From positions 540,226 to 604,225 of the forward strand of contig CP029803.1 in the NCBI GenBank assembly GCA_003226295.1: a stretch of DNA of 64,000 nt, written 5' to 3'. Shown here one piece after another: positions 5,407 through 28,818 of the stretch (positions are counted from its first letter, which is position 1; every line of letters starts with the position of its first letter). Below the pieces are notes generated by a model. It searched no databases, was not told the DNA's origin, and saw nothing but the letters and a program-made list of their open reading frames with translations. The position numbers and the translations under genes were made by a program. This DNA is from Candidatus Moanabacter tarae. Its GTDB lineage: Bacteria > Verrucomicrobiota > Verrucomicrobiia > Opitutales > UBA2987.

Positions 5407-5410
5407 CGGA

Positions 5411-5497
5411 CGGCATTCGGAGTGGCCTCATTGATGAAATGGGGCCTGGCAACCTGGCAGGACAGGCCAAGGTGCTTCCCCCGAAAGGGTGATGCGG
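5411..5497 (+). ncRNA. SAM riboswitch, SAM-I/IV family aptamer
   Basis: The SAM-I clan core is visible. P1 pairs GCATT (5413-5417) with GATGC (5491-5495). After CGGAGTG comes P2, a 9-bp stem of GGCCTCATT (5424-5432) with AATGGGGCC (5438-5446). Next is the conserved TGGCAACC (5447-5454), then P3, then AAGGTGCTTCC (5469-5479) and a hairpin closed by GAAA, ending GGGTGATGC. The GAGTG and GGGTGATG flanks match SAM-IV and SAM-I/IV variants better than classical SAM-I. The next gene is a homocysteine S-methyltransferase, which fits control by SAM. The expression platform (5498-5620) contains further possible stems such as CTGGG/CCCAG, but I cannot define the switch. Confidence 0.8.
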
Positions 5498-5620
5498 TTT
5501 CTGGGAAGGGACAAAGAAGCTGTCTACTGGGCAATACCCTCAGACCCGATGCTGGGGGTTGGTGTTGTGAATCCCAGTGAGTTCTGAGTGCGACAGACTG
5601 TCCTTTGGAGAAAAGGGGAT

Positions 5621-6640
5621 ATGAATAGAGATCTACGTGCTAGACTTAAAGAGGCAAAGCCTTTGGTTTACGATGGGGGTTTTGGGTCGCAATTATTCGC
5701 TAGGGGAATTGAGCTTACCAATAGTACATTAGCCAATGATCTTCACCCGAATACGGTTGAGGACATCCATGGCGATTACATCAGAGCAGGAGCTGATGCC
5801 ATTGGAACAAACACATTCGTTGCTTCTGAACTCCATCTGAAGATGGCAGGAAAGGAAGTGAAGGATGTTAACCAATTAGTGAAAAGAGCAGTGGCACATG
5901 CTAAGACGGCTGTCGAGAACAGTGGTAGGGAGGTATTCATTGCAGGTTCGGTAGGTCCTTCACCCGGTGCGATCGAAGCTGATGTGGGTTGTAATGAATT
6001 CGGAATACCCGATGATGATGTCCGGTCTGCGCATGAGCGGGTCATAAATGCGCTAGCCGAGGAGGGAGTTGATTTTTTGAATATTGAAACGATGTTCTCA
6101 GCGACAGAGGCGGTCATGATTGTCGATATCGCCCGCCACACGGGGCTTCCACTTGCGGTGAATCTAACCTATAAGTACACTGGGAATCGTGCAAAGGATG
6201 GATTCATCTATCGCACAGATTGGGGCCATTCAGCGGAAGATCTTGTGAAGATTCTAGCGGGAGAAAACAATCTGGATACGGGTAACCTGCTTGAATTCAT
6301 TCAAATTTTGGGCTTGAATTGCGGTGCTGAATCAAGGCGAAAAGAACATACGGGCATGCCTTATGCGGTCAATGGCATACGGCAATTACACGAGGCTATA
6401 GAAGGACAAGGGGTGAAAGGGAAACGGCTGATGGCATATCCGAATGCCGGACTTCCCTACCTTGATGAGGAACAGCGCACCTGTTATTCGCAAACGCCAG
6501 AGGAAATGGCTACCAACATCGGAGAACTCATAAATGCCGGTGCTTCTGTTATTGGAGGATGCTGTGGCACTGGGCCAGATCACATCCGGGCTTTCCGTGA
6601 GGCAGTTGATTCCTTCGAAGGACGGGTACACCACACTTAA
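5621..6640 (+). CDS. Homocysteine S-methyltransferase family protein
   Basis: A TIM-barrel methyltransferase of the MetH N-terminal/BHMT/MmuM family that passes a methyl group to homocysteine to make methionine. Zinc ligands are visible: Cys234 in GLNCG and Cys314-Cys315 in GGCCGTGPDHI, near the C-terminus as expected. The N-terminus has VYDGGFGSQLFARG, the family opening. ATG at 5621 is chosen because GGAGA lies 8 bases upstream; a GTG 33 bases earlier falls in the leader and has no ribosome site. The product is 339 residues, a stand-alone enzyme without cobalamin domains. The methyl donor (S-methylmethionine, betaine or a corrinoid partner) is not evident. Likely repressed when SAM is high through the upstream riboswitch. 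Confidence 0.9.
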   Translation: MNRDLRARLKEAKPLVYDGGFGSQLFARGIELTNSTLANDLHPNTVEDIHGDYIRAGADAIGTNTFVASELHLKMAGKEVKDVNQLVKRAVAHAKTAVENSGREVFIAGSVGPSPGAIEADVGCNEFGIPDDDVRSAHERVINALAEEGVDFLNIETMFSATEAVMIVDIARHTGLPLAVNLTYKYTGNRAKDGFIYRTDWGHSAEDLVKILAGENNLDTGNLLEFIQILGLNCGAESRRKEHTGMPYAVNGIRQLHEAIEGQGVKGKRLMAYPNAGLPYLDEEQRTCYSQTPEEMATNIGELINAGASVIGGCCGTGPDHIRAFREAVDSFEGRVHHT

Positions 6641-6860: not shown

Positions 6861-7577
6861 ATGCGCGTTTCGATTGTCATACCATTGCACAATGAAGCTG
6901 ACAATGTTGCTCAACTCGTGAGCGAGATTGCGACGCTTTCCCTGAAGAGCCAGTTTGAAATTATCTTAGTGAACGACGCAAGTTTCGATGAGACAGCCCT
7001 AGTTCTTTCTGAGATGAAGTTGAAAATTCCCCATCTGAAGGTTATATCGCACAGTAAGAAATATGGTCAAAGCGCAGCAATTGCAACCGGAGTTAGGTAT
7101 TCCCAAGGCGAATTAATTGCAACGCTGGATGGAGACGGCCAGAATGATCCAGCGGATATTCCAAAGTTGATTTCAGTTCTTGAAAACAACCAGGAATTTT
7201 CGATGGTAGCAGGTTATCGAAGAGAACGCCATGATTCATGGTGGAAAATTTCTTCCTCTAAAATAGCTAATTTGGTTCGAGGTTTTATTTTGAGGGACAA
7301 TACTCCGGATGCCGGTTGCGGGTTGAAAGTTTTCTACAAGACTACGTTTCTGGCGCTCCCTTTTTTCGACCATATGCACCGCTTTTTGCCAGCCCTAGTA
7401 CAGATGCAAGGGGGGAAAGTTACTTCTGTGGAAGTGAGTCATCGAACAAGGGCACACGGCCGATCGAACTATGGAACATGGGACAGGCTTTGGGTAGGAA
7501 TTATTGATCTGATGGGTGTAAGATGGCTTAGATTGCGATCCAGGAAAATTTTAATTGAGGAGGACTTCGATGAATGA
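6861..7577 (+). CDS. Family 2 glycosyltransferase, polyprenyl-phosphate sugar synthase type
   Basis: A 238-residue GT-A glycosyltransferase related to dolichol-phosphate mannose synthase and ArnC/FlmF. Seen: VSIVIPLHNEADNVAQLV at the N-terminus, the strand VNDASFDET, the nucleotide-sugar and metal site TLDGDGQNDP (residues about 89-98), and the RTRAHGRSNYG motif typical of this group. It has no C-terminal pair of membrane helices, unlike ArnC, so it probably sits at the inner face of the membrane and loads a sugar on undecaprenyl phosphate. It overlaps the next gene and is first in an operon whose last gene is an ArnT-like transferase, the expected user of the lipid-linked sugar. Confidence 0.88.
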   Translation: MRVSIVIPLHNEADNVAQLVSEIATLSLKSQFEIILVNDASFDETALVLSEMKLKIPHLKVISHSKKYGQSAAIATGVRYSQGELIATLDGDGQNDPADIPKLISVLENNQEFSMVAGYRRERHDSWWKISSSKIANLVRGFILRDNTPDAGCGLKVFYKTTFLALPFFDHMHRFLPALVQMQGGKVTSVEVSHRTRAHGRSNYGTWDRLWVGIIDLMGVRWLRLRSRKILIEEDFDE

Positions 7578-21015: not shown

Positions 21016-21801
21016 ATGGCTAAACGACTTGAAGGTAGAGTGGCTTTGGTGACGGGAGCGTCAAGAGGTATTGGGCGGTCTATCGCGTTCCGTTTCGCTG
21101 AGGAAGGTGCTTTAGTGGCGGTTAATTACCAGAAGAATCGGGAGATGGCTGAGGAGGTTTGTAAGGCTATCAAGGCATTGGGTGGGGAGGCGGTAGCCAT
21201 CCAGGGCGATGTAGGAGACCTCGATGCAATTCCAGATTTTGTAAAAAGAGTATTGGAGCATTTTGAGGTTATCGACATATTAGTTAATAATGCAGGTATC
21301 TACCTTGAGACTTCACTATCCGACCCGAAGATGGCGGTCATGGAACGCCTTATGCAAGTGAATGTCCATGGATTGGTCCGCCTTTCGGCTGAGGTTATTC
21401 CGGGAATGATTGAGCGTCGTTATGGGAAAATCCTGAATCTGGCCTCGATCGCCGCCTTGGGAACTTCAGTTGAAGGCACTAGCGGTTACGGAACGACTAA
21501 GGCGGCGGTGAATTTAATTACTAAGCGAACTGCATTCGAAGTCGGCCGCCACAATATCAATGTTAATGCCATTGCACCTGGGCTAATCCGGACAGATATG
21601 GGGATGCCGGAAAAGGATCCGACAGAAATCAAAGCGAGAATTCAGGGCTATGGGGAAAATTCAGTGCTTGGAAGGATAGGCGAGCCGGATGAGATTGCCC
21701 ATGCCGCTTTGTTTCTAGTATCCGATGAATCGGCCTTTATCACTGGGCAGGTGTTGGTGGTGGATGGGGGCCGGACGAATTTTCTTTCGCATTCAGCATA
21801 A
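21016..21801 (+). CDS. Short-chain dehydrogenase/reductase (FabG-like)
   Basis: A 261-residue SDR. Classical motifs: TGASRGIG for NAD(P) binding, NNAG, and the catalytic Ser in NLASIAALGTS with YGTTK (Tyr and Lys); PGLIRTDM and a C-terminal ITGQVLVVDGG complete the fold. ATG at 21016 fits the MAKRLEGRVALVTG opening and has AAGGAG and AAGGA ahead of it; 25 more codons upstream remain open but lie in the divergent promoter. The role could be 3-oxoacyl-ACP reductase or oxidation of a sugar or alcohol; with the isomerase-like gene opposite, sugar metabolism is a guess. Confidence 0.85.
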   Translation: MAKRLEGRVALVTGASRGIGRSIAFRFAEEGALVAVNYQKNREMAEEVCKAIKALGGEAVAIQGDVGDLDAIPDFVKRVLEHFEVIDILVNNAGIYLETSLSDPKMAVMERLMQVNVHGLVRLSAEVIPGMIERRYGKILNLASIAALGTSVEGTSGYGTTKAAVNLITKRTAFEVGRHNINVNAIAPGLIRTDMGMPEKDPTEIKARIQGYGENSVLGRIGEPDEIAHAALFLVSDESAFITGQVLVVDGGRTNFLSHSA

Positions 21802-22095
21802 CCGCATCCAATGAACAGGGACATTTTACCTGCAATTCAAGATTAAGGAGATATAGATTTTCAGCATACAACTTTCGACCTCAGTGACTGATCAAAATTG
21901 GAAGATATGTTCATTAAAAACTTCTCGCTTGTTCCGTCTTTCAGTTAATCGGTGAAGCTGAAACTAGGATTTTAATAAGTGGGGAGTGGATGTGCATCCT
22001 ACAAATAATGGAAGAGAAGCCTTCCGGCCTTGTGGTAGAAGGCAGAAGGAAAAAAGCTGACGAAGAATAGTCCCTTTGGTTTTCAAAAGTTAGGC
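21802..22095. other. Intergenic region, no gene seen
   Basis: Non-coding stretch before the TPP riboswitch promoter. A 6-bp stem GCCTTC/GAAGGC near 22021-22045 encloses a 13-base loop; no T-run follows, so I do not call it a terminator. Confidence 0.4.
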
Positions 22096-22124
22096 TTGAT
22101 CTTCAACTGAGATCCATTTAGAAA
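22096..22124 (+). promoter_or_regulatory. Probable sigma-70 promoter of the TPP riboswitch transcript
   Basis: TTGATC (22096-22101), 17-base spacer, TAGAAA (22119-22124). Start of transcription would fall near 22131, one base before the P1 stem of the riboswitch. Confidence 0.5.
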
Positions 22125-22130
22125 TCTCAT

Positions 22131-22228
22131 TGTTCACGGGGTGCTCCTGCGAAGTGAGCTGAGAATTGGTTGTAGGCAACCAGTAACCCTTGGAACCTGA
22201 TCTGGGTCGTGCCGGCGTAGGGAGAACT
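22131..22228 (+). ncRNA. TPP riboswitch (THI element)
   Basis: The sequence carries the conserved blocks of the thiamin pyrophosphate aptamer: CACGGGGTGC (22135-22144), GCTGAGA (22158-22164), a variable stem TGGTTG...CAACCA, then ACCCTTGGAACCTGATCTGG and GTGCCGGCGTAGGGA ending near 22223. P1 is GTTC (22132-22135) with GAAC (22224-22227). The order and spacing match the class. It lies about 50 bases before the TonB-dependent receptor start, so the receptor is likely turned down when TPP is plentiful. I cannot tell a terminator from an RBS-blocking platform. Confidence 0.95.
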
Positions 22229-22276
22229 GAGCGTGTGTGGAGTTTTTCTTCATTGGTATGGCCTACTAAAATCCAT

Positions 22277-24658
22277 ATGATGAAAGAGAGAGCTTTTCTA
22301 GGGGACCTACTAGGTTGTTTTGTTATACTTAGTTTGCTTGTGGCGAGTGATGTTCCCGTAAGCGGGGATAGTAATGCAAAAGAAAGTGACATAAAGGAGC
22401 TTCAGGAATATGTCGTTGGAGGGGTGGCTCCAGAGATTTCTGTTAATCCACTGGCTCATCCAATTAGCTCTGTCTACGGCTGGAAGCGAGATCTTCTATC
22501 CATACCTAGGGGGGTCTCTTTGATTCCTCCCGAGCTTTTGCAGGAACGATACGTAGACAGTGTGCAGGAGATCATTCCTTTCAGTCCAAGTGCACAGTCT
22601 CCATCTAGCTATGGTAACAATACAACTCCCCACATTCGGGGGGATGTAGCGGAATTCTATGTTAACGGACAGAGGCGGAGCGGTAATGAATACGGGTTCG
22701 ACCCCAGTTTTAATAGCGTGGAGTCAATCAGTGTAGTGCGTGGACCTGGAACGGTGAGCTTGGGTCCTGGATTCTACAGTGGAGGTTATGTCAATTACGT
22801 TACGAAGAAGCCGAATTTGGATAAGCATGCAATTAAGGTCACAGCTAATATTGGGGCTTGGGTTCCGGGGCATCATTCCTATCTTGACACTTCTTTTCAA
22901 TTCGACCGCAACCTTCCTCTAAGTCGAGGTAAACTGGGTCTTCGGATTAGTTATGAGGGGCAGGAGAACCAAACTTTTTTTCATCGAAATGGAGGAAGAG
23001 AAGATTATCAAGATTTGTATTTAGCGCTAAAATGGAGACCTACCCCCAAGTTGGAGATAGACTTTGGTGGACAATATGTTTGGCAAGGAGTTCCGCAGTT
23101 ACTTGGCGTAAATCGGCCCTACGATGGACTGATACTTGAGAATCGGTATATTAAAGGGGGGTTAACCTATCCGGCTGTAAACGCGCCTGATGGGTTTTCA
23201 ATTCGAACTAAGGTGGGCGGTACAACTGAATTTGATCCCCAGTACACCCTTCTTTCCTCGGGTGACTACAGCAATGCGAACATAGGGAGTGTTCAGGTAA
23301 TCAGCAGGTTGTCCTTAGACAAAAGTTCTGTCCTGGTGAATCGGACTTTCGTTGAGCGAGTGAATCGAAGACGTCATCATGATTTTTCCTATACTGAATA
23401 CGTTAGACAGTTGACGTTCGAAACTCGCAACGAATGGGAGAAGAAATTTGATGGGGGAGAGATTAGCCACAGTCTCCTTTTAGGATTCGGTATCCGATAC
23501 GAAGATACTGAGGCCTACATGAACTATTTCAACTATTATCCCTATGGCTACGATATTTCAAGAGGCCCACCTTTTAGGGCGGAAGATATCATCGGCCTGT
23601 TCGGACAACCCGGTCCTGGAGGCAGCCTTTTTTATGGAGCCGAAGAGGGTATCCCAGAAACCTCACATTCTGAAGTATGGCATCCAGCTGTATTTTTGCA
23701 ACATGAGGTCTCTTATGCCGATCGAGTCCAGATCCTCTATGGACTCCGCGGAAATTCCTACAATGCAAATGTCTCAGACCCACTGCCTCCTTCAGGAGCA
23801 GAAAGTGCCTGGAGGGACAGCGGTGTTTTCTATAGTGGAGATTACAATGTAAGCCTAACCTTCAAAGCGAGAGATGGACTGTCAATCTACACAACATTCA
23901 ACCTCACTCATGCAGTTGATGGAAGCAGTGGAGGGGGAGCGATCATGCTTGGGGGAGAAGGAGTGATCGATAAAGAGGACTTTAAAAACCAATGCGAACT
24001 AATTGAAGGTGGGGTTAAATTAAGCTTATTGGAGAACAGTCTATATGTTGCTACAACTGGATTCCGGCAGGACCGATACCGTTCCGAGCTAGGGGGAGGA
24101 AAGACTGGAATAAGAGTCAGTGGATTGGAATTTGAAACCGTCTACCAGCCGGTTGAACGATTTTATTTCCTGGCCAATTTAACCTATATGTCGGGTCATT
24201 ATAAAGATGCATCACCATTCGTTCTTGGTGGAGTTGACTTAAACGGACTTTATTATTCTCCTGAGGGTTTTTTTGGCGTTACTCAAAATTTTGACCCGAA
24301 CTTGATTGGAGATGACGGCCAGATTATTCCGGGCAATCACACAATTTCAGGCATATCGAAATGGACCCTTAATTTAGGGACTTCTTGGAGATCAATTAAG
24401 GGTTTTGGATTTCGATTGTGGGGGAGTGTTCAATCATCCCAAAATGGAAACATGTTGCGACAATATACGATTCCAACACAGTTTGGGCTCAATGGTTCTT
24501 TGCTGTTTAAGAACCAGAGTTGGGAGGCATCCCTCAGCTTTCTGAATTTCACAGATGAACCCAACTGGTCGCACAACGGTGACGAATTTGGTAGTAACGT
24601 ATTTGTAGGCCGTAATCTGCCTTTCCGGATGGAAGCACAATTCCGAATCTTCCTTTAG
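22277..24658 (+). CDS. TonB-dependent receptor, probable thiamin or thiamin-precursor uptake
   Basis: A 793-residue outer-membrane receptor. ATG at 22277 (with another at 22280) opens a signal peptide (FLGDLLGCFVILSLLVASDVPVSG); an upstream in-frame TTG lies inside the riboswitch and is rejected. The plug domain is seen around residues 50-180, with TPHIRGDVAEFYVNGQRR and SISVVRGPGTVSLGPG, then SGGYVNYVTKKP, followed by a long beta-barrel of alternating aromatic strands ending in RMEAQFRIFL, where the terminal hydrophobic residues suit BAM insertion. Function is inferred from the TPP riboswitch. A hairpin terminator follows at 24681. Energy would come from ExbB/ExbD/TonB. Confidence 0.9.
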   Translation: MMKERAFLGDLLGCFVILSLLVASDVPVSGDSNAKESDIKELQEYVVGGVAPEISVNPLAHPISSVYGWKRDLLSIPRGVSLIPPELLQERYVDSVQEIIPFSPSAQSPSSYGNNTTPHIRGDVAEFYVNGQRRSGNEYGFDPSFNSVESISVVRGPGTVSLGPGFYSGGYVNYVTKKPNLDKHAIKVTANIGAWVPGHHSYLDTSFQFDRNLPLSRGKLGLRISYEGQENQTFFHRNGGREDYQDLYLALKWRPTPKLEIDFGGQYVWQGVPQLLGVNRPYDGLILENRYIKGGLTYPAVNAPDGFSIRTKVGGTTEFDPQYTLLSSGDYSNANIGSVQVISRLSLDKSSVLVNRTFVERVNRRRHHDFSYTEYVRQLTFETRNEWEKKFDGGEISHSLLLGFGIRYEDTEAYMNYFNYYPYGYDISRGPPFRAEDIIGLFGQPGPGGSLFYGAEEGIPETSHSEVWHPAVFLQHEVSYADRVQILYGLRGNSYNANVSDPLPPSGAESAWRDSGVFYSGDYNVSLTFKARDGLSIYTTFNLTHAVDGSSGGGAIMLGGEGVIDKEDFKNQCELIEGGVKLSLLENSLYVATTGFRQDRYRSELGGGKTGIRVSGLEFETVYQPVERFYFLANLTYMSGHYKDASPFVLGGVDLNGLYYSPEGFFGVTQNFDPNLIGDDGQIIPGNHTISGISKWTLNLGTSWRSIKGFGFRLWGSVQSSQNGNMLRQYTIPTQFGLNGSLLFKNQSWEASLSFLNFTDEPNWSHNGDEFGSNVFVGRNLPFRMEAQFRIFL

Positions 24659-24680
24659 CCCAGAGGATGCGAGAGATTAT

Positions 24681-24704
24681 AGGAAGCTTGCTCGCTTCCT
24701 TTTC
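24681..24704 (+). terminator. Rho-independent terminator after the TPP-controlled receptor
   Basis: AGGAAGC (24681-24687) pairs with GCTTCCT (24694-24700) over 7 bp around the loop TTGCTC, followed by a short T-run. It lies 23 bases after the stop codon. Confidence 0.6.
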
Positions 24705-24766
24705 AATACAAGAGTTTTAATTTTTGATAATGATTATTTAGTAATTCCATGTATATGGCTTTCTAA

Positions 24767-24784
24767 GCGAGTCTTTCGACTCGC
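24767..24784. repeat. GC-rich 7-bp hairpin, GCGAGTC/GACTCGC
   Basis: A perfect 7-bp inverted repeat with a 4-base loop that reads TTTC on the plus strand and GAAA (a stable tetraloop) on the minus strand. No T-run follows on either side. It lies between the receptor terminator and trkH; its function is unknown. Confidence 0.4.
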
Positions 24785-24937
24785 CTAAACGAAATTTATA
24801 TTTTGTCAAACAGCAGTCCAAAGTTTGGATCTGTTGCGAATTGCAAAGACCAAAAGATTTCTTTTTCTAAAGGTCCTTGGGAAGAATGTACCTACTTTAG
24901 GACGGCCCTAAGATAACAACCGAAAGGTTTATACGCA

Positions 24938-26416
24938 GTGAATTACGCCATCATCTTCCGGTTGCTCGGTATTATACTAACAGCCTTGTGTGTGGCGATG
25001 GCTGTTAGCCTTGGCATTGCTTTTTTCTTCGACGGTGATGTCGGGAGAGAAGGAACCGCCATTCGGGGTTTTACCATGAGTATCGTGATTTCTTCCTCTT
25101 TGGCGGTTGCTTTTCAACTAATGAGCCGGGAGGGAGAGATGAAAATGCTTCGGAAGGAGGCTATAACGGTTATTGGGTTGGGGTGGATACTCGCCAGTCT
25201 GGTTGGTGCGCTACCTTATTACTTAATCCTTCCAGATTGTTCAGTGGCGGATGCGGTTTTTGAGTCAACCTCCGGTATTACTACGACGGGCGCTTCAGTA
25301 TTCAGTACCCTCGAGGGGTTTCCCCGCAGTCTTCTTTTCTGGCGTGCTATCAGTCAATGGATCGGTGGACTTGGAATTGTGGTATTTTTTGTTTCTCTTC
25401 TCTCCTTTTTGGGTGTTGGGGCCAAAATATTATTCTCAGGTGAGTCTTCTGCTAGTTCGACGGAGTTGGATTCACCAAGAGTGCGGATTGGTATATTGCA
25501 TATAATGTATCTTTACTTTGGTCTCTCGGCCATCTGTGCGGTGGCCTATCGTTTCTGTGGGTTGAATTGGTTCGATGCCGTTTGCCATATGTTCACGACG
25601 GTAAGCACGGCGGGTTTTAGTACAAAGACGGCGAGTATCGGTGCTTTCGACAATGCCACTTTTGAGTGGACCGTAATCTTCTTTATGTTGTTAGGAGGGA
25701 TGAGCTTTCTGGTTATGGTGCGTGTTTTGCAGGGCGATTTCCGTGTGCTGTTGAGAAACAGCGAAGTAAAGTCCCTCCTGTTAATTGTAATAATCGCAAC
25801 ATTGCTTGTGGCAGAGACCCTCCTCGATCAGAATAGTATGGAAGGGTTTCATACGTTAATCAGGAAGAGCGTTTTTCAGACCGTATCAATACTAACCACG
25901 ACGGGATATAGTTCGGCCAACTTCGATGTCTGGTCGGAGACAACTCATGCTGTTTTGTTGGTGCTCATGTTGATTGGTGGCTGTAGTGGATCAACTGCCG
26001 GTGGACTTAAAATAGTCCGAGTTATTGCTGCTTTCCGTATCTGCCTTTTGCAGATCGAGAAGGCCTTTCGTGCTCGGCTTTTCCGCCAAATCAAGATAAG
26101 CGGTCGCACTATCGATACAGAGACAAAAGTATCGATTTCTGGTTATATTGTACTGGCAATGTCTCTCTGTTTCGCAGGTATGCTGGTCGTAGCTTACCTG
26201 GAACCAGGATTCAGTATGAAAGGGATGTTCTCGGCTGCAATTGCCTGTTTTTTCAACATTGGCCCTGGGTTTTCAGAAGTTGGTCCCGCTCAAAATTACG
26301 GTGAGTTGAAAGGACTCACTAAGTCTTTTCTCTCTCTTCTTATGATTATGGGAAGGGTCGAGCTCTTCCCAGTGTTAGTGCTATTTGTGCCCACATTATG
26401 GCGGAGGTTTTACTAA
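24938..26416 (+). CDS. trkH: Trk-type potassium uptake protein TrkH
   Basis: A 492-residue membrane protein with about ten helices in four repeats, each with a pore loop. The four selectivity filter regions are visible: TSGITTTGASV, TVSTAGFST, ILTTTGYSSA and FNIGPGFSEVGP. GGCSGSTAGGLKIVR, a family signature, lies between the third and fourth. GTG start at 24938 with GAAAGG about 10 bases upstream. TrkH imports K+ with a cytoplasmic TrkA NAD-binding ring; no trkA is seen in the window. The next gene begins 74 bases on, so read-through to the second receptor is possible. Confidence 0.95.
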   Translation: MNYAIIFRLLGIILTALCVAMAVSLGIAFFFDGDVGREGTAIRGFTMSIVISSSLAVAFQLMSREGEMKMLRKEAITVIGLGWILASLVGALPYYLILPDCSVADAVFESTSGITTTGASVFSTLEGFPRSLLFWRAISQWIGGLGIVVFFVSLLSFLGVGAKILFSGESSASSTELDSPRVRIGILHIMYLYFGLSAICAVAYRFCGLNWFDAVCHMFTTVSTAGFSTKTASIGAFDNATFEWTVIFFMLLGGMSFLVMVRVLQGDFRVLLRNSEVKSLLLIVIIATLLVAETLLDQNSMEGFHTLIRKSVFQTVSILTTTGYSSANFDVWSETTHAVLLVLMLIGGCSGSTAGGLKIVRVIAAFRICLLQIEKAFRARLFRQIKISGRTIDTETKVSISGYIVLAMSLCFAGMLVVAYLEPGFSMKGMFSAAIACFFNIGPGFSEVGPAQNYGELKGLTKSFLSLLMIMGRVELFPVLVLFVPTLWRRFY

Positions 26417-26490
26417 GAATCCTTAGAGGCAAATCTGGTCAGAACCTCTTTGTTGATTTTGATAACACACACGTAGCTATCTTACGAGAT

Positions 26491-28818
26491 ATGAAATTCA
26501 ACAAATTTCTAATTCCAAATCGATGGATCCGGTTTTTTGTACTGGGCTCAGTAAGTTTTACTGCATACCTCGAAGGGAGTGAACTAGAAATCGATGATAA
26601 AGTTGAGATTCTCGAATCGATGGAAGTAATTGATATTACACCTACCCATAGTGTTGGTATCGATCCTAGAGATATGCCTTCATCTGTTCTACGGATTACA
26701 GAGACGGAACTAAAGTGGTCGTTGAGTTTGGGTCTAACCGATGTCATGAACCGGGCGATTGGTAGCTTTCTTGTCAATGATGCACAGGGGAACCCGATGC
26801 AGCCAAATTTTCAATTTCGAGGGTATACCTCTTCTCCGCTACTCGGATTACCTCAAGGACTTGCCGTTTTCCAGAACGGTATTCGAATGAATGAGCCCTT
26901 TGGTGACACGGTGAATTGGGACCTGATCCCTCTCGTGGGAATCAGCAGTGTCAATGTAATGGCGGGATCAAATCCGATGTTTGGATTGAATACATTAGGT
27001 GGGGCGATATCAATTCGAACAAAGAACGGCTTCTCTCATCCCGGGAACGACATTAAATTATATGGCGGTTCGTTTGGACGTTTGTCAGCTCAGTTTCAGA
27101 GTGGTGCAAATAAAGGGGCTTTCGGTTACTATATTGCCGCCCACCATTTCCAAGAGGTCGGGTGGCGAGATTTCTCGGACTCAGAAGCCTCTAACTTTAT
27201 GGGTGTATTTAGTTGGCGGGATGAGTCCAGCTTCTTAAACCTCAATTTTTCAGCTGGGAAAACAGAACTCAGAGGGAATGGAGCATCTCCGGTCGAGCTC
27301 CTTGAAAATGACCGAAGTGCTGTTTTTACCCATCCAGATATAACAAAGAATGCTCTTTCAATGTTTTCTGCTGAATGGGATAGAGCAGTTGCGAAAGATT
27401 TCCACTTTTCGGGTACAGCTTATTTTCGAGCAACTGATACAGATTCTTTTAACGGCGACGGATCCGAATTTGAAGAATGCGTTGGAGACCCGGGTAACGA
27501 ATACTTATGTCATGGAATGGAGAGTTCTGGAGAAGTCCCCATTCTCGATCAGGTTGGAGGGTTTGCTAACGCTGGGTTCGATGCCATAAACAATATTAGT
27601 TGGCGAGACCAAGAGAGCTATGGAGGATCGTTGCAGACAATCTTATCCAAGGAAATCGGAATAAATGAAAACCAATTGATTTTCGGGGGAAGTTTTGACC
27701 GAGGGGCAAGTGGATTCGAATCCCAAGTTGAACTGAGCCAATTAACCGACGATAGAGGAACGATCAGGACAGGGCTTTTCGTGCCTGAAGAGGAAGTCGA
27801 AATAAAGACCCGAACAGAGACCTGGTCTCTCTACTTTTGGGATACTTTTTATTTTTCTGAAGTAATGAATATTTCGGTCTCTGGACGGTACAATAATTCC
27901 GATGTTCTAATACGTGACATCACGGGTAATACTCCAGATCTTAATGGTGACCACCATTTCGATCAATTTAATTTCTCAGCTGGAATTACCCACGACATCT
28001 TTCCGGAGATGGGTTTCTATTTCAACTTCAGCCAATCTAATCGTGTCCCCACTCCTGTTGAGCTGGCTTGTGCTAATCCGGATGCCCCCTGTAATCTTCC
28101 AAACTCCTTTCTTGCAGATCCTCCACTCGAGCAGGTGCGGACAGACACATTGGAAGGAGGTTTTCGGGGCGAGATCAGAGATTCGGTTGAATTAGAGGTC
28201 GGGGTTTTTCGATCCGAGAACAAGGATGACATTATCTTTATCAGCACCGGTGGTGTAACAAGTAACCAAGGTTACTTTGACAATATAGGGAATACACTTC
28301 GACAGGGAATAGAATTTCGTATGAAAGGCGATCTCGAAAGCATTCAGTGGCATTTTAACTATAGTTATCTTAGGGCTGAATTCAACAGTGCCTTCGTCTC
28401 GAATAGTCCCTATCATCCTAATTCAAGTATTAACGGTGATATCAATGTGGGGAGAGGTGACCGTATTCCTTCAATTCCTCAGCATAATCTAAAGGCAGGT
28501 GTTAAATGGGAATCTAGAAATAGTCTCAGTCTCAGTGCTGATGCCTCATACATTTCTGGGCAATACCTACGGGGAGATGAAATGAATGCCCTTGCCTTAA
28601 TAGATGGGTACGTAGTATTCGATTTTTTTGGACGCTATGAATTAACTCAATTGCTTTCGGTCTTCTGGAAGGTCGATAATCTGCTTGATTCGATATACGA
28701 GACTTTTGGTCTTCTGGGTGAACCCGATGAAGTCTTGGGAGAGGATTTCGAGAATCCTAGATTTTTGGCGCCCGGGCCACCTTTTGGTGTTTGGGTTGGC
28801 TTAGAGTATGAATTTTAG
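26491..28818 (+). CDS. TonB-dependent receptor, substrate unknown
   Basis: A 775-residue receptor starting at ATG 26491, which gives a short basic and hydrophobic signal segment (WIRFFVLGSVSFTAYLEGS). The same frame is open further upstream into trkH, but that part has no signal-like features. A TonB-box-like MEVIDIT lies near residue 46. The plug shows PNFQFRGYTSSPLLGLPQG, VFQNGIRMNEPFGD and LNTLGGAISIRTKNG; the barrel ends PPFGVWVGLEYEF with a terminal Phe. This arrangement resembles siderophore or vitamin-type receptors more than SusC, as no carboxypeptidase-like domain or SusD partner is present. No riboswitch or Fur-like box was recognised upstream. Confidence 0.88.
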   Translation: MKFNKFLIPNRWIRFFVLGSVSFTAYLEGSELEIDDKVEILESMEVIDITPTHSVGIDPRDMPSSVLRITETELKWSLSLGLTDVMNRAIGSFLVNDAQGNPMQPNFQFRGYTSSPLLGLPQGLAVFQNGIRMNEPFGDTVNWDLIPLVGISSVNVMAGSNPMFGLNTLGGAISIRTKNGFSHPGNDIKLYGGSFGRLSAQFQSGANKGAFGYYIAAHHFQEVGWRDFSDSEASNFMGVFSWRDESSFLNLNFSAGKTELRGNGASPVELLENDRSAVFTHPDITKNALSMFSAEWDRAVAKDFHFSGTAYFRATDTDSFNGDGSEFEECVGDPGNEYLCHGMESSGEVPILDQVGGFANAGFDAINNISWRDQESYGGSLQTILSKEIGINENQLIFGGSFDRGASGFESQVELSQLTDDRGTIRTGLFVPEEEVEIKTRTETWSLYFWDTFYFSEVMNISVSGRYNNSDVLIRDITGNTPDLNGDHHFDQFNFSAGITHDIFPEMGFYFNFSQSNRVPTPVELACANPDAPCNLPNSFLADPPLEQVRTDTLEGGFRGEIRDSVELEVGVFRSENKDDIIFISTGGVTSNQGYFDNIGNTLRQGIEFRMKGDLESIQWHFNYSYLRAEFNSAFVSNSPYHPNSSINGDINVGRGDRIPSIPQHNLKAGVKWESRNSLSLSADASYISGQYLRGDEMNALALIDGYVVFDFFGRYELTQLLSVFWKVDNLLDSIYETFGLLGEPDEVLGEDFENPRFLAPGPPFGVWVGLEYEF

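Follow-up and report, generated by a model that had tools for sequence, protein, structure and literature searches.

A thiamin pyrophosphate riboswitch ahead of a TonB-dependent receptor in a genome without detectable ThiC: a probable importer of a thiamin-type compound

The DNA analysed here is a stretch of 64,000 nucleotides (hereafter the window), positions 540226–604225 of contig C1 in the genome of Candidatus Moanabacter tarae (G000; 2,633,965 bases), and it contains a thiamin pyrophosphate (TPP) riboswitch aptamer located 37 nt upstream of the start of a gene for a TonB-dependent receptor (Table 1). The first-pass annotation of this DNA had read a THI element from the letters alone, and the Infernal run against RF00059 that it proposed agrees, as the match spans the full model above the gathering score, with an E-value of 2.1e-9 in the scan of the whole window and of 1.1e-11 when the aptamer is searched alone. 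No second RF00059 match is present in the genome at E <= 0.001. The conserved blocks GCUGAGA, GAACCUGAUC and GCGUAGGGA are all found, and pairing is canonical in 24 of the 27 consensus pairs. Because the folding energy of the aptamer has no advantage over shuffled sequences (z -0.02), the case for it rests on the covariance-model match and on its recurrence in relatives and not on thermodynamics. A full-length TPP aptamer upstream of the receptor is confirmed, and binding of TPP and an effect on expression are predicted from it. The well-spaced promoter that had been placed ahead of the aptamer could not be recovered, since a scan of 21800–25000 for sites with at least 9 of 12 matches to the sigma-70 consensus gave no plus-strand site before the aptamer.

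Analysis of the receptor supports the signal peptide and plug that had been assigned to it. The Plug domain scores above its gathering threshold, and the hydrophobic leader, read from the sequence, has a maximum 15-residue Kyte-Doolittle mean of 2.39. The leader is followed by the motif LQEYVV, which we take to be TonB-box-like. No match to PF00593, the model of the C-terminal 22-strand barrel, is listed for the receptor, yet its homology to six relatives runs over the full length; the receptors of these relatives also stand behind TPP aptamers and are 34–58% identical to it. Its nearest named relatives (58%) come from two metagenome-assembled genomes labelled Opitutales bacterium. The gene next after the receptor is TrkH, and neither PnuT nor a thiamin pyrophosphokinase (TPK) follows in the window.

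Between the aptamer and the receptor lies a putative expression platform. When the aptamer is enforced in constrained folding, the two candidate start codons at 22277 and 22280 are unpaired with probabilities of only 0.19 and 0.03, being covered by a hairpin at about 22240–22296. In unconstrained folding these values rise to 0.67 and 0.38, and the hairpin segment base-pairs instead with the 3' part of the aptamer. Such a pattern would fit translational repression by TPP.

Table 1. Features of the riboswitch–receptor locus (window coordinates).
Feature	Position	Strand	Evidence
TPP riboswitch aptamer (THI element, RF00059)	22127..22239	+	cmscan 60.6 bits, gathering score 54.3, full model 1–105
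Putative expression platform: hairpin covering ATGs 22277/22280 when aptamer closed	22240..22296	+	constrained folding
TonB-dependent receptor, family A; start ATG 22277 or 22280, in-frame TTG 22253 possible	22277..24658	+	Plug PF07715, homology of relatives
Predicted signal peptide of receptor, cleavage site approximate	22277..22369	+	read from sequence
TonB-box-like LQEYVV, residues 42–47	22400..22417	+	L42 invariant in 7/7 alignment rows
Plug domain PF07715, residues 73–165 from ATG 22280	22496..22774	+	35.4 bits, gathering score 23.9

Eight thiamin genes were tested in G000, namely ThiC, ThiD, ThiE, ThiG, ThiH, ThiL, TenA and TPK of the PF04263 type. There is no match for ThiC and none for the PF04263-type TPK. 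The other six are all encoded outside the window: ThiD (278.4 bits, NCBIfam cut-off 204.95), ThiE (172.4 bits, cut-off 145.1), ThiH (406.8 bits, cut-off 380), ThiL (188.6 bits, cut-off 184.15), TenA (169.7 bits, cut-off 130 of TIGR04306, thiaminase II/salvage TenA) and ThiG (343 bits), which adjoins ThiH. The earlier remark that the window has no thi genes is accurate but makes weak evidence, given the six genes kept elsewhere; in the genome-wide search that it suggested, ThiC is not found whereas ThiG and ThiE are present. The gene content predicts that G000 is an auxotroph for the pyrimidine half of thiamin, 4-amino-5-hydroxymethyl-2-methylpyrimidine (HMP), which has lost ThiC and kept the synthesis of thiazole and the assembly of thiamin phosphate. 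Likewise, a PF04263-type TPK that could pyrophosphorylate imported thiamin is predicted to be missing. Full thiamin auxotrophy is rejected on the presence of ThiE, ThiG, ThiH, ThiD and ThiL. A need to import thiazole is rejected as well, because ThiG and ThiH are kept and the tested genes without a match are ThiC and TPK alone. The first-pass proposal that the cell may rely on uptake of thiamin or a precursor therefore loses its thiazole option, while the absence of ThiC and the tracking of the receptor with both the aptamer and ThiC absence speak for the remainder.

This tracking is seen in a sample of 103 genomes of the order, 69 of which carry the aptamer at E <= 0.001 (56 above the gathering score). 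They provide 79 riboswitch sites including that of G000. Judged by the first open reading frame (ORF) that follows the aptamer, picked by its length, 39 sites have ThiC, 8 have a receptor from the same family as that of G000 (family A), 16 have a receptor from another family (family B), and 16 have other or unresolved first ORFs. Within this last group ThiC is the second ORF in G040 and G054, and a ThiC match lies just behind the aptamer in G092. Receptors of family B are about 700 residues long and contain a Plug domain; the member in G064 is present as a fragmentary frame only. These sites show that the TPP riboswitch of the order mostly precedes either thi genes, ThiC above all, or a receptor, with two receptor families in the latter role. 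A receptor behind the riboswitch occurs in 20 genomes without and 4 with ThiC, while the genomes without such a receptor number 4 and 41, respectively (69 genomes; Fisher p 7e-10, without adjustment for relatedness). Family A is found in 8 genomes from five taxonomic families, none of which has ThiC (Fisher p 9e-5, likewise not corrected for relatedness), and other members of two of these taxonomic families (f13 and f21) have kept ThiC. Family B is found in 12 ThiC-less and 4 ThiC-bearing genomes. The combination of absent ThiC with ThiE and ThiG present, as in G000, occurs in 7 of the 103 genomes, and a PF03070 match for TenA is present in 6 of these 7 against 5 of the 96 others.

Twelve of the 103 genomes (G001, G002, G003, G006, G012, G062, G064, G065, G078, G079, G099 and G101) have ThiL over the cut-off without a match to ThiC, ThiE or TPK and without a strong match to ThiG, and would therefore need either a thiamin kinase, which lies outside the genes searched, or external thiamin phosphate. 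In a small genome without a ThiC match (G007), a weak TPP aptamer (L111, G007:C3:12908-13024; 37.7 bits, below the gathering score) precedes a sodium:solute symporter.

In a wider sample of 387 genomes of the phylum, with at most two candidates scored per genome, the family-A profile is matched at E 1e-50 in 38. Receptors scoring at least 900 bits have an aptamer in nine of nine cases (G000, G065, G055, G443, G421, G191, G446, the second copy of G286, and G433, whose aptamer of 53.9 bits is slightly below the gathering score), against none of the 18 scanned loci that score no higher than 630 bits (L171–L188). One further copy in G206 (876 bits) sits at a contig end, where its aptamer status cannot be judged. 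The locus L220 (G286:C46) contains two family-A receptors in tandem, with the TPP aptamer between them and upstream of the second copy only. In a tree of 58 receptor rows (LG+G4, quick search), family B forms one clade (support 99) and family A also forms one clade apart from a single nested row, L171; the paralog rows L177, L179 and L187 sit on a branch of 2.53 and are possibly wrongly picked frames. BLAST between the two families is marginal, with a best E-value of 1e-5 over 150 residues. Since the tree separates them and BLAST scarcely connects them, A and B are separate lineages with the same role.

TenA of G000 (L137:1381-2148; G000:C1 2081949-2082716) starts with MKVTIKECISKLCFPRLLAALFLALFIYSDLSA-ES..., a leader resembling a signal peptide. 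Its hydrophobic maximum is 2.25, compared with 0.43–0.88 in four leaderless TenA proteins, and no in-frame ATG, GTG or TTG lies between the ATG and the TenA domain. The motif LLPCYWIY aligns with LLPCYWLY of TenA chains 1tyh, 1to9 and 1yaf, and its cysteine is presumably the catalytic one. A TenA match is present in 11 of the 103 genomes; G000 and eight more were compared by BLAST, and G019 and G088 stand outside that check. Another TenA, encoded at L201 (G166:C83) in a more remote genome of the phylum, has a leader that resembles that of a lipoprotein (LPGC). Six further PF03070 matches (L191–L196) were rejected as TenA and are taken to be PqqC-like, as they give no BLAST match to TenA of G000 even at E 10; of the three whose surroundings were inspected (L191, L192 and L196), the first two adjoin ORFs that by eye resemble pqqB or pqqE.

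For the inner membrane, a permease of the CNT family is a candidate carrier of thiamin or pyrimidine, and no more than a candidate. There is one match in G000, and its nearest kin among the 19 compared are the CNT proteins of G001, G003 and G002 (67–69% identical, branch support 98). In G001 the gene lies directly behind the receptor, and in G003 it lies past an amidohydrolase gene behind the receptor. A more distant CNT stands directly behind thiC in G020 and G038 (L143:5286-6515 and L144:3964-5208; the Pfam check covered L143), two genomes in which there is no TPP aptamer match. Our literature search for CNT together with thiamin, and for Verrucomicrobia together with TonB and ThiC, returned nothing pertinent. 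A gene named KamA-like by eye stands beside the CNT in G000 (L142:5560-6750), and genes named in the same way are found near the family-A receptors of G421 and G433 (L223:1233-2429 and L226:9910-11094).

Taken together, we consider it likely (probability roughly 0.7) that this locus encodes a TPP-repressed importer, placed in the outer membrane, of a thiamin-type compound, from which a cell without ThiC would draw the pyrimidine half. At low TPP the aptamer would be open and the receptor translated, and at high TPP closure of the aptamer would let the hairpin cover the start codon. The TonB-powered receptor may then bring thiamin, thiamin phosphate or partly degraded thiamin into the periplasm. 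The use of this compound for its pyrimidine half is suggested because neither ThiC nor TPK is detectable. TenA would free HMP, and since it has a predicted signal peptide this cleavage may be periplasmic, in which case HMP would cross the inner membrane afterwards, possibly through the single CNT permease. ThiD would phosphorylate HMP twice, ThiE would join it to the cell's own thiazole made by ThiG and ThiH, and ThiL would produce TPP.

The nature of the ligand can be approached through the gene sets that accompany family A. G000, G030 and G055 have ThiD, ThiE, ThiG, ThiL and TenA without ThiC, and G016 (82% complete) has the same set except that no ThiL passes the cut-off. In G001, G002, G003 and G065, only ThiL is present among the tested genes, the best PF08543 matches being at most 30.6 bits. 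The receptor of G000 is 58% identical to that of G001 or G003, the full-length ones of G001–G003. If one family has one ligand, that ligand should serve both gene sets, and the simplest shared one is probably the thiamin moiety; a pyrimidine or thiazole in free form fits less well. It could be argued that the imported compound is instead HMP or a different free pyrimidine, such as AmMP or FAMP, which is exactly what G000 lacks. The four genomes that keep ThiE, ThiG and TenA without ThiC agree with this, and in the thiC-less Pelagibacterales a pyrimidine transporter gene, thiV, stands beside a TPP riboswitch and tenA (PMC10881298). However, a free pyrimidine would be of no use to G001–G003 and G065, in which ThiE and ThiG are not found and ThiD has no strong match. 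Moreover, small free pyrimidines pass porins, and a TonB receptor would be less needed for them. We regard this alternative as unlikely.

About equally improbable in our view is import of thiamin monophosphate (TMP), thiamin diphosphate or carrier-bound thiamin, with ThiL completing the cofactor. Here the ThiL-only genomes fit well, because they combine family A with ThiL in the absence of TPK and incoming TMP would need no other enzyme; TonB receptors, moreover, favour larger or scarce ligands. Against this, a kinase of the ThiK type, which was outside the genes searched and is seen in the Sulfurovum cluster discussed below, would let the same cells use plain thiamin, and TMP was mostly below quantification in coastal water (PMC10881298). 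A siderophore receptor whose leader has acquired a TPP aptamer by chance, through rearrangement or an iron–thiamin link, is highly improbable, for although the best named model is the siderophore-receptor model TIGR01783 and family A lies with most paralogs on the FhuA/FhuE/Fiu side of the tree (Shimodaira-Hasegawa approximate likelihood ratio support 87), so that the grouping with siderophore receptors named in the first-pass annotation as contrary evidence is seen in part, the model score of 59.6 bits is far under the cut-off of 223.5, a long branch with support 100 parts these receptors from the E. coli proteins, the aptamer recurs before family A in five taxonomic families and before none of the 18 lower-scoring relatives scanned, and the receptor is tightly linked with the absence of ThiC.

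Several observations weigh against import of a thiamin-type compound by the proposed route. The failure to detect ThiC comes from one assembly of 98% completeness, together with concordant family relatives (G001–G003), and the search of G000 for thiamin genes covered the eight named above. The hairpin over the start codons is equalled or bettered by 46 of 500 shuffles (22240–22296) or 70 of 500 (22240–22300), which is not significant, and occlusion of the start codon is for this reason a suggestion only. In Bacteroides thetaiotaomicron the transcript of OMthi, the receptor considered below, is unresponsive to thiamin (PMC5613172). Family-A-like copies without an aptamer of their own are found in G286 (the first tandem copy, 832 bits) and in G206 (815 bits), and L171 (630 bits) nests within family A without one. 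A sequence search of the PDB with the receptor gave a single match at E 0.096 and hence no solved relative, and the AlphaFold model built from three sequences has a mean predicted local distance difference test score of 29, which is unusable. The CNT of G000 is near neither the receptor nor the thi genes found, and its score of 384.9 bits is under the NupC subfamily cut-off of 442. None of the eight other TenA proteins of the order checked by BLAST (including those of G016, G030 and G055) has such a leader, so that TenA export does not belong to the system in general.

A more far-reaching version is that family A represents a second TonB lineage recruited for thiamin independently of family B, which resembles the riboswitch- and PnuC-linked receptor of Sulfurovum. 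In G000 it would act with exported TenA, with imported thiamin or its breakdown products cleaved in the periplasm, entry of the pyrimidine half alone through CNT and rejoining to the cell's own thiazole. We offer this tentatively and regard it as unlikely in its entirety. If it were true, the vitamin would follow a 'strip and rebuild' route across the envelope. Periplasmic cleavage of thiamin is a specific and testable prediction, and the related genome sets allow a direct test of whether the ligand is thiamin, its phosphates or a pyrimidine. The subject has a wider bearing, as thiamin auxotrophy shapes dependence among the members of aquatic communities.

Elsewhere in the window, a SAM-I/IV riboswitch is present at 5408–5528 (44.6 bits, gathering score 41.1), and about 60 nt past it an ORF (5588–6640) appears by eye to be homocysteine S-methyltransferase-like. 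A second TonB-dependent receptor, without a TPP aptamer, lies behind TrkH at 26398–28818; the first codons of this ORF overlap the end of TrkH, so translation probably begins at a later codon.

In Bacteroides the existence of TPP-controlled TonB receptors for thiamin is established, and genetic evidence backs their role (PMC5613172). In B. thetaiotaomicron, loss of the receptor OMthi/OMR1 (BT2390) on top of loss of the biosynthesis operon raises the half-maximal effective concentration of thiamin to 15.8 nM, compared with 2.8 nM (PMC5613172). The locus described here resembles this system, which includes PnuT and Tnr3, in having a TPP riboswitch upstream of a TonB receptor, a likeness of arrangement. 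It differs in that the receptor is followed by TrkH instead of PnuT and TPK, and that TPK was not found in G000. Since the operon of B. thetaiotaomicron is itself split (PMC5613172), the missing neighbours are not strictly defining. Use of omr1 by Opitutales has been stated, with its specificity marked as unclear in the legend of Fig. 2 of the same paper (PMC12442306). A plasmid of Sulfurovum mangrovi (L217:2777-6566) contains in a row a TPP aptamer (71.6 bits), split frames of a family-B-like receptor, PnuC and a ThiK-like kinase (24% identical to E. coli ThiK, E 3e-10), and a second TPP aptamer lies at 6937–7087. The receptor in this cluster is matched by family B (33.4%) and not by family A.

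Caldithrix abyssi has a locus of TPP riboswitch, TonB receptor, sodium symporter and TPK, and Variovorax has a TPP operon with a TonB receptor, both with predicted roles (PMC5317091, PMC10409787). G000 shares with them the logic of riboswitch and receptor. However, they have a linked carrier and TPK, or biosynthesis genes, whereas the receptor of G000 stands alone in a genome whose pathway is without ThiC. Marine bacteria that have TenA and no ThiC have also been described (PMC10881298, PMC12442306), and G000 is similar to the Pelagibacterales type of pyrimidine auxotrophy in lacking ThiC, keeping ThiG and ThiE and having TenA for salvage (PMC10881298, PMC12442306). It departs from that type in that the gene behind its riboswitch is for an outer-membrane receptor and not for ThiV of the inner membrane, and in that its TenA has a predicted signal peptide. 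A TenA outside the cytoplasm has a counterpart in BtTenA of B. thetaiotaomicron, which is packaged into extracellular vesicles (PMC10277260); BtTenA is vesicle cargo, while TenA of G000 has a Sec-type leader as judged from its sequence. Our search of the literature found no account of a receptor of the family-A type together with exported TenA, which is not proof of absence. The finding is of a known kind, and what is less ordinary in it is the receptor lineage, the pyrimidine-only gap combined with the lack of a detected TPK, and the export predicted for TenA.

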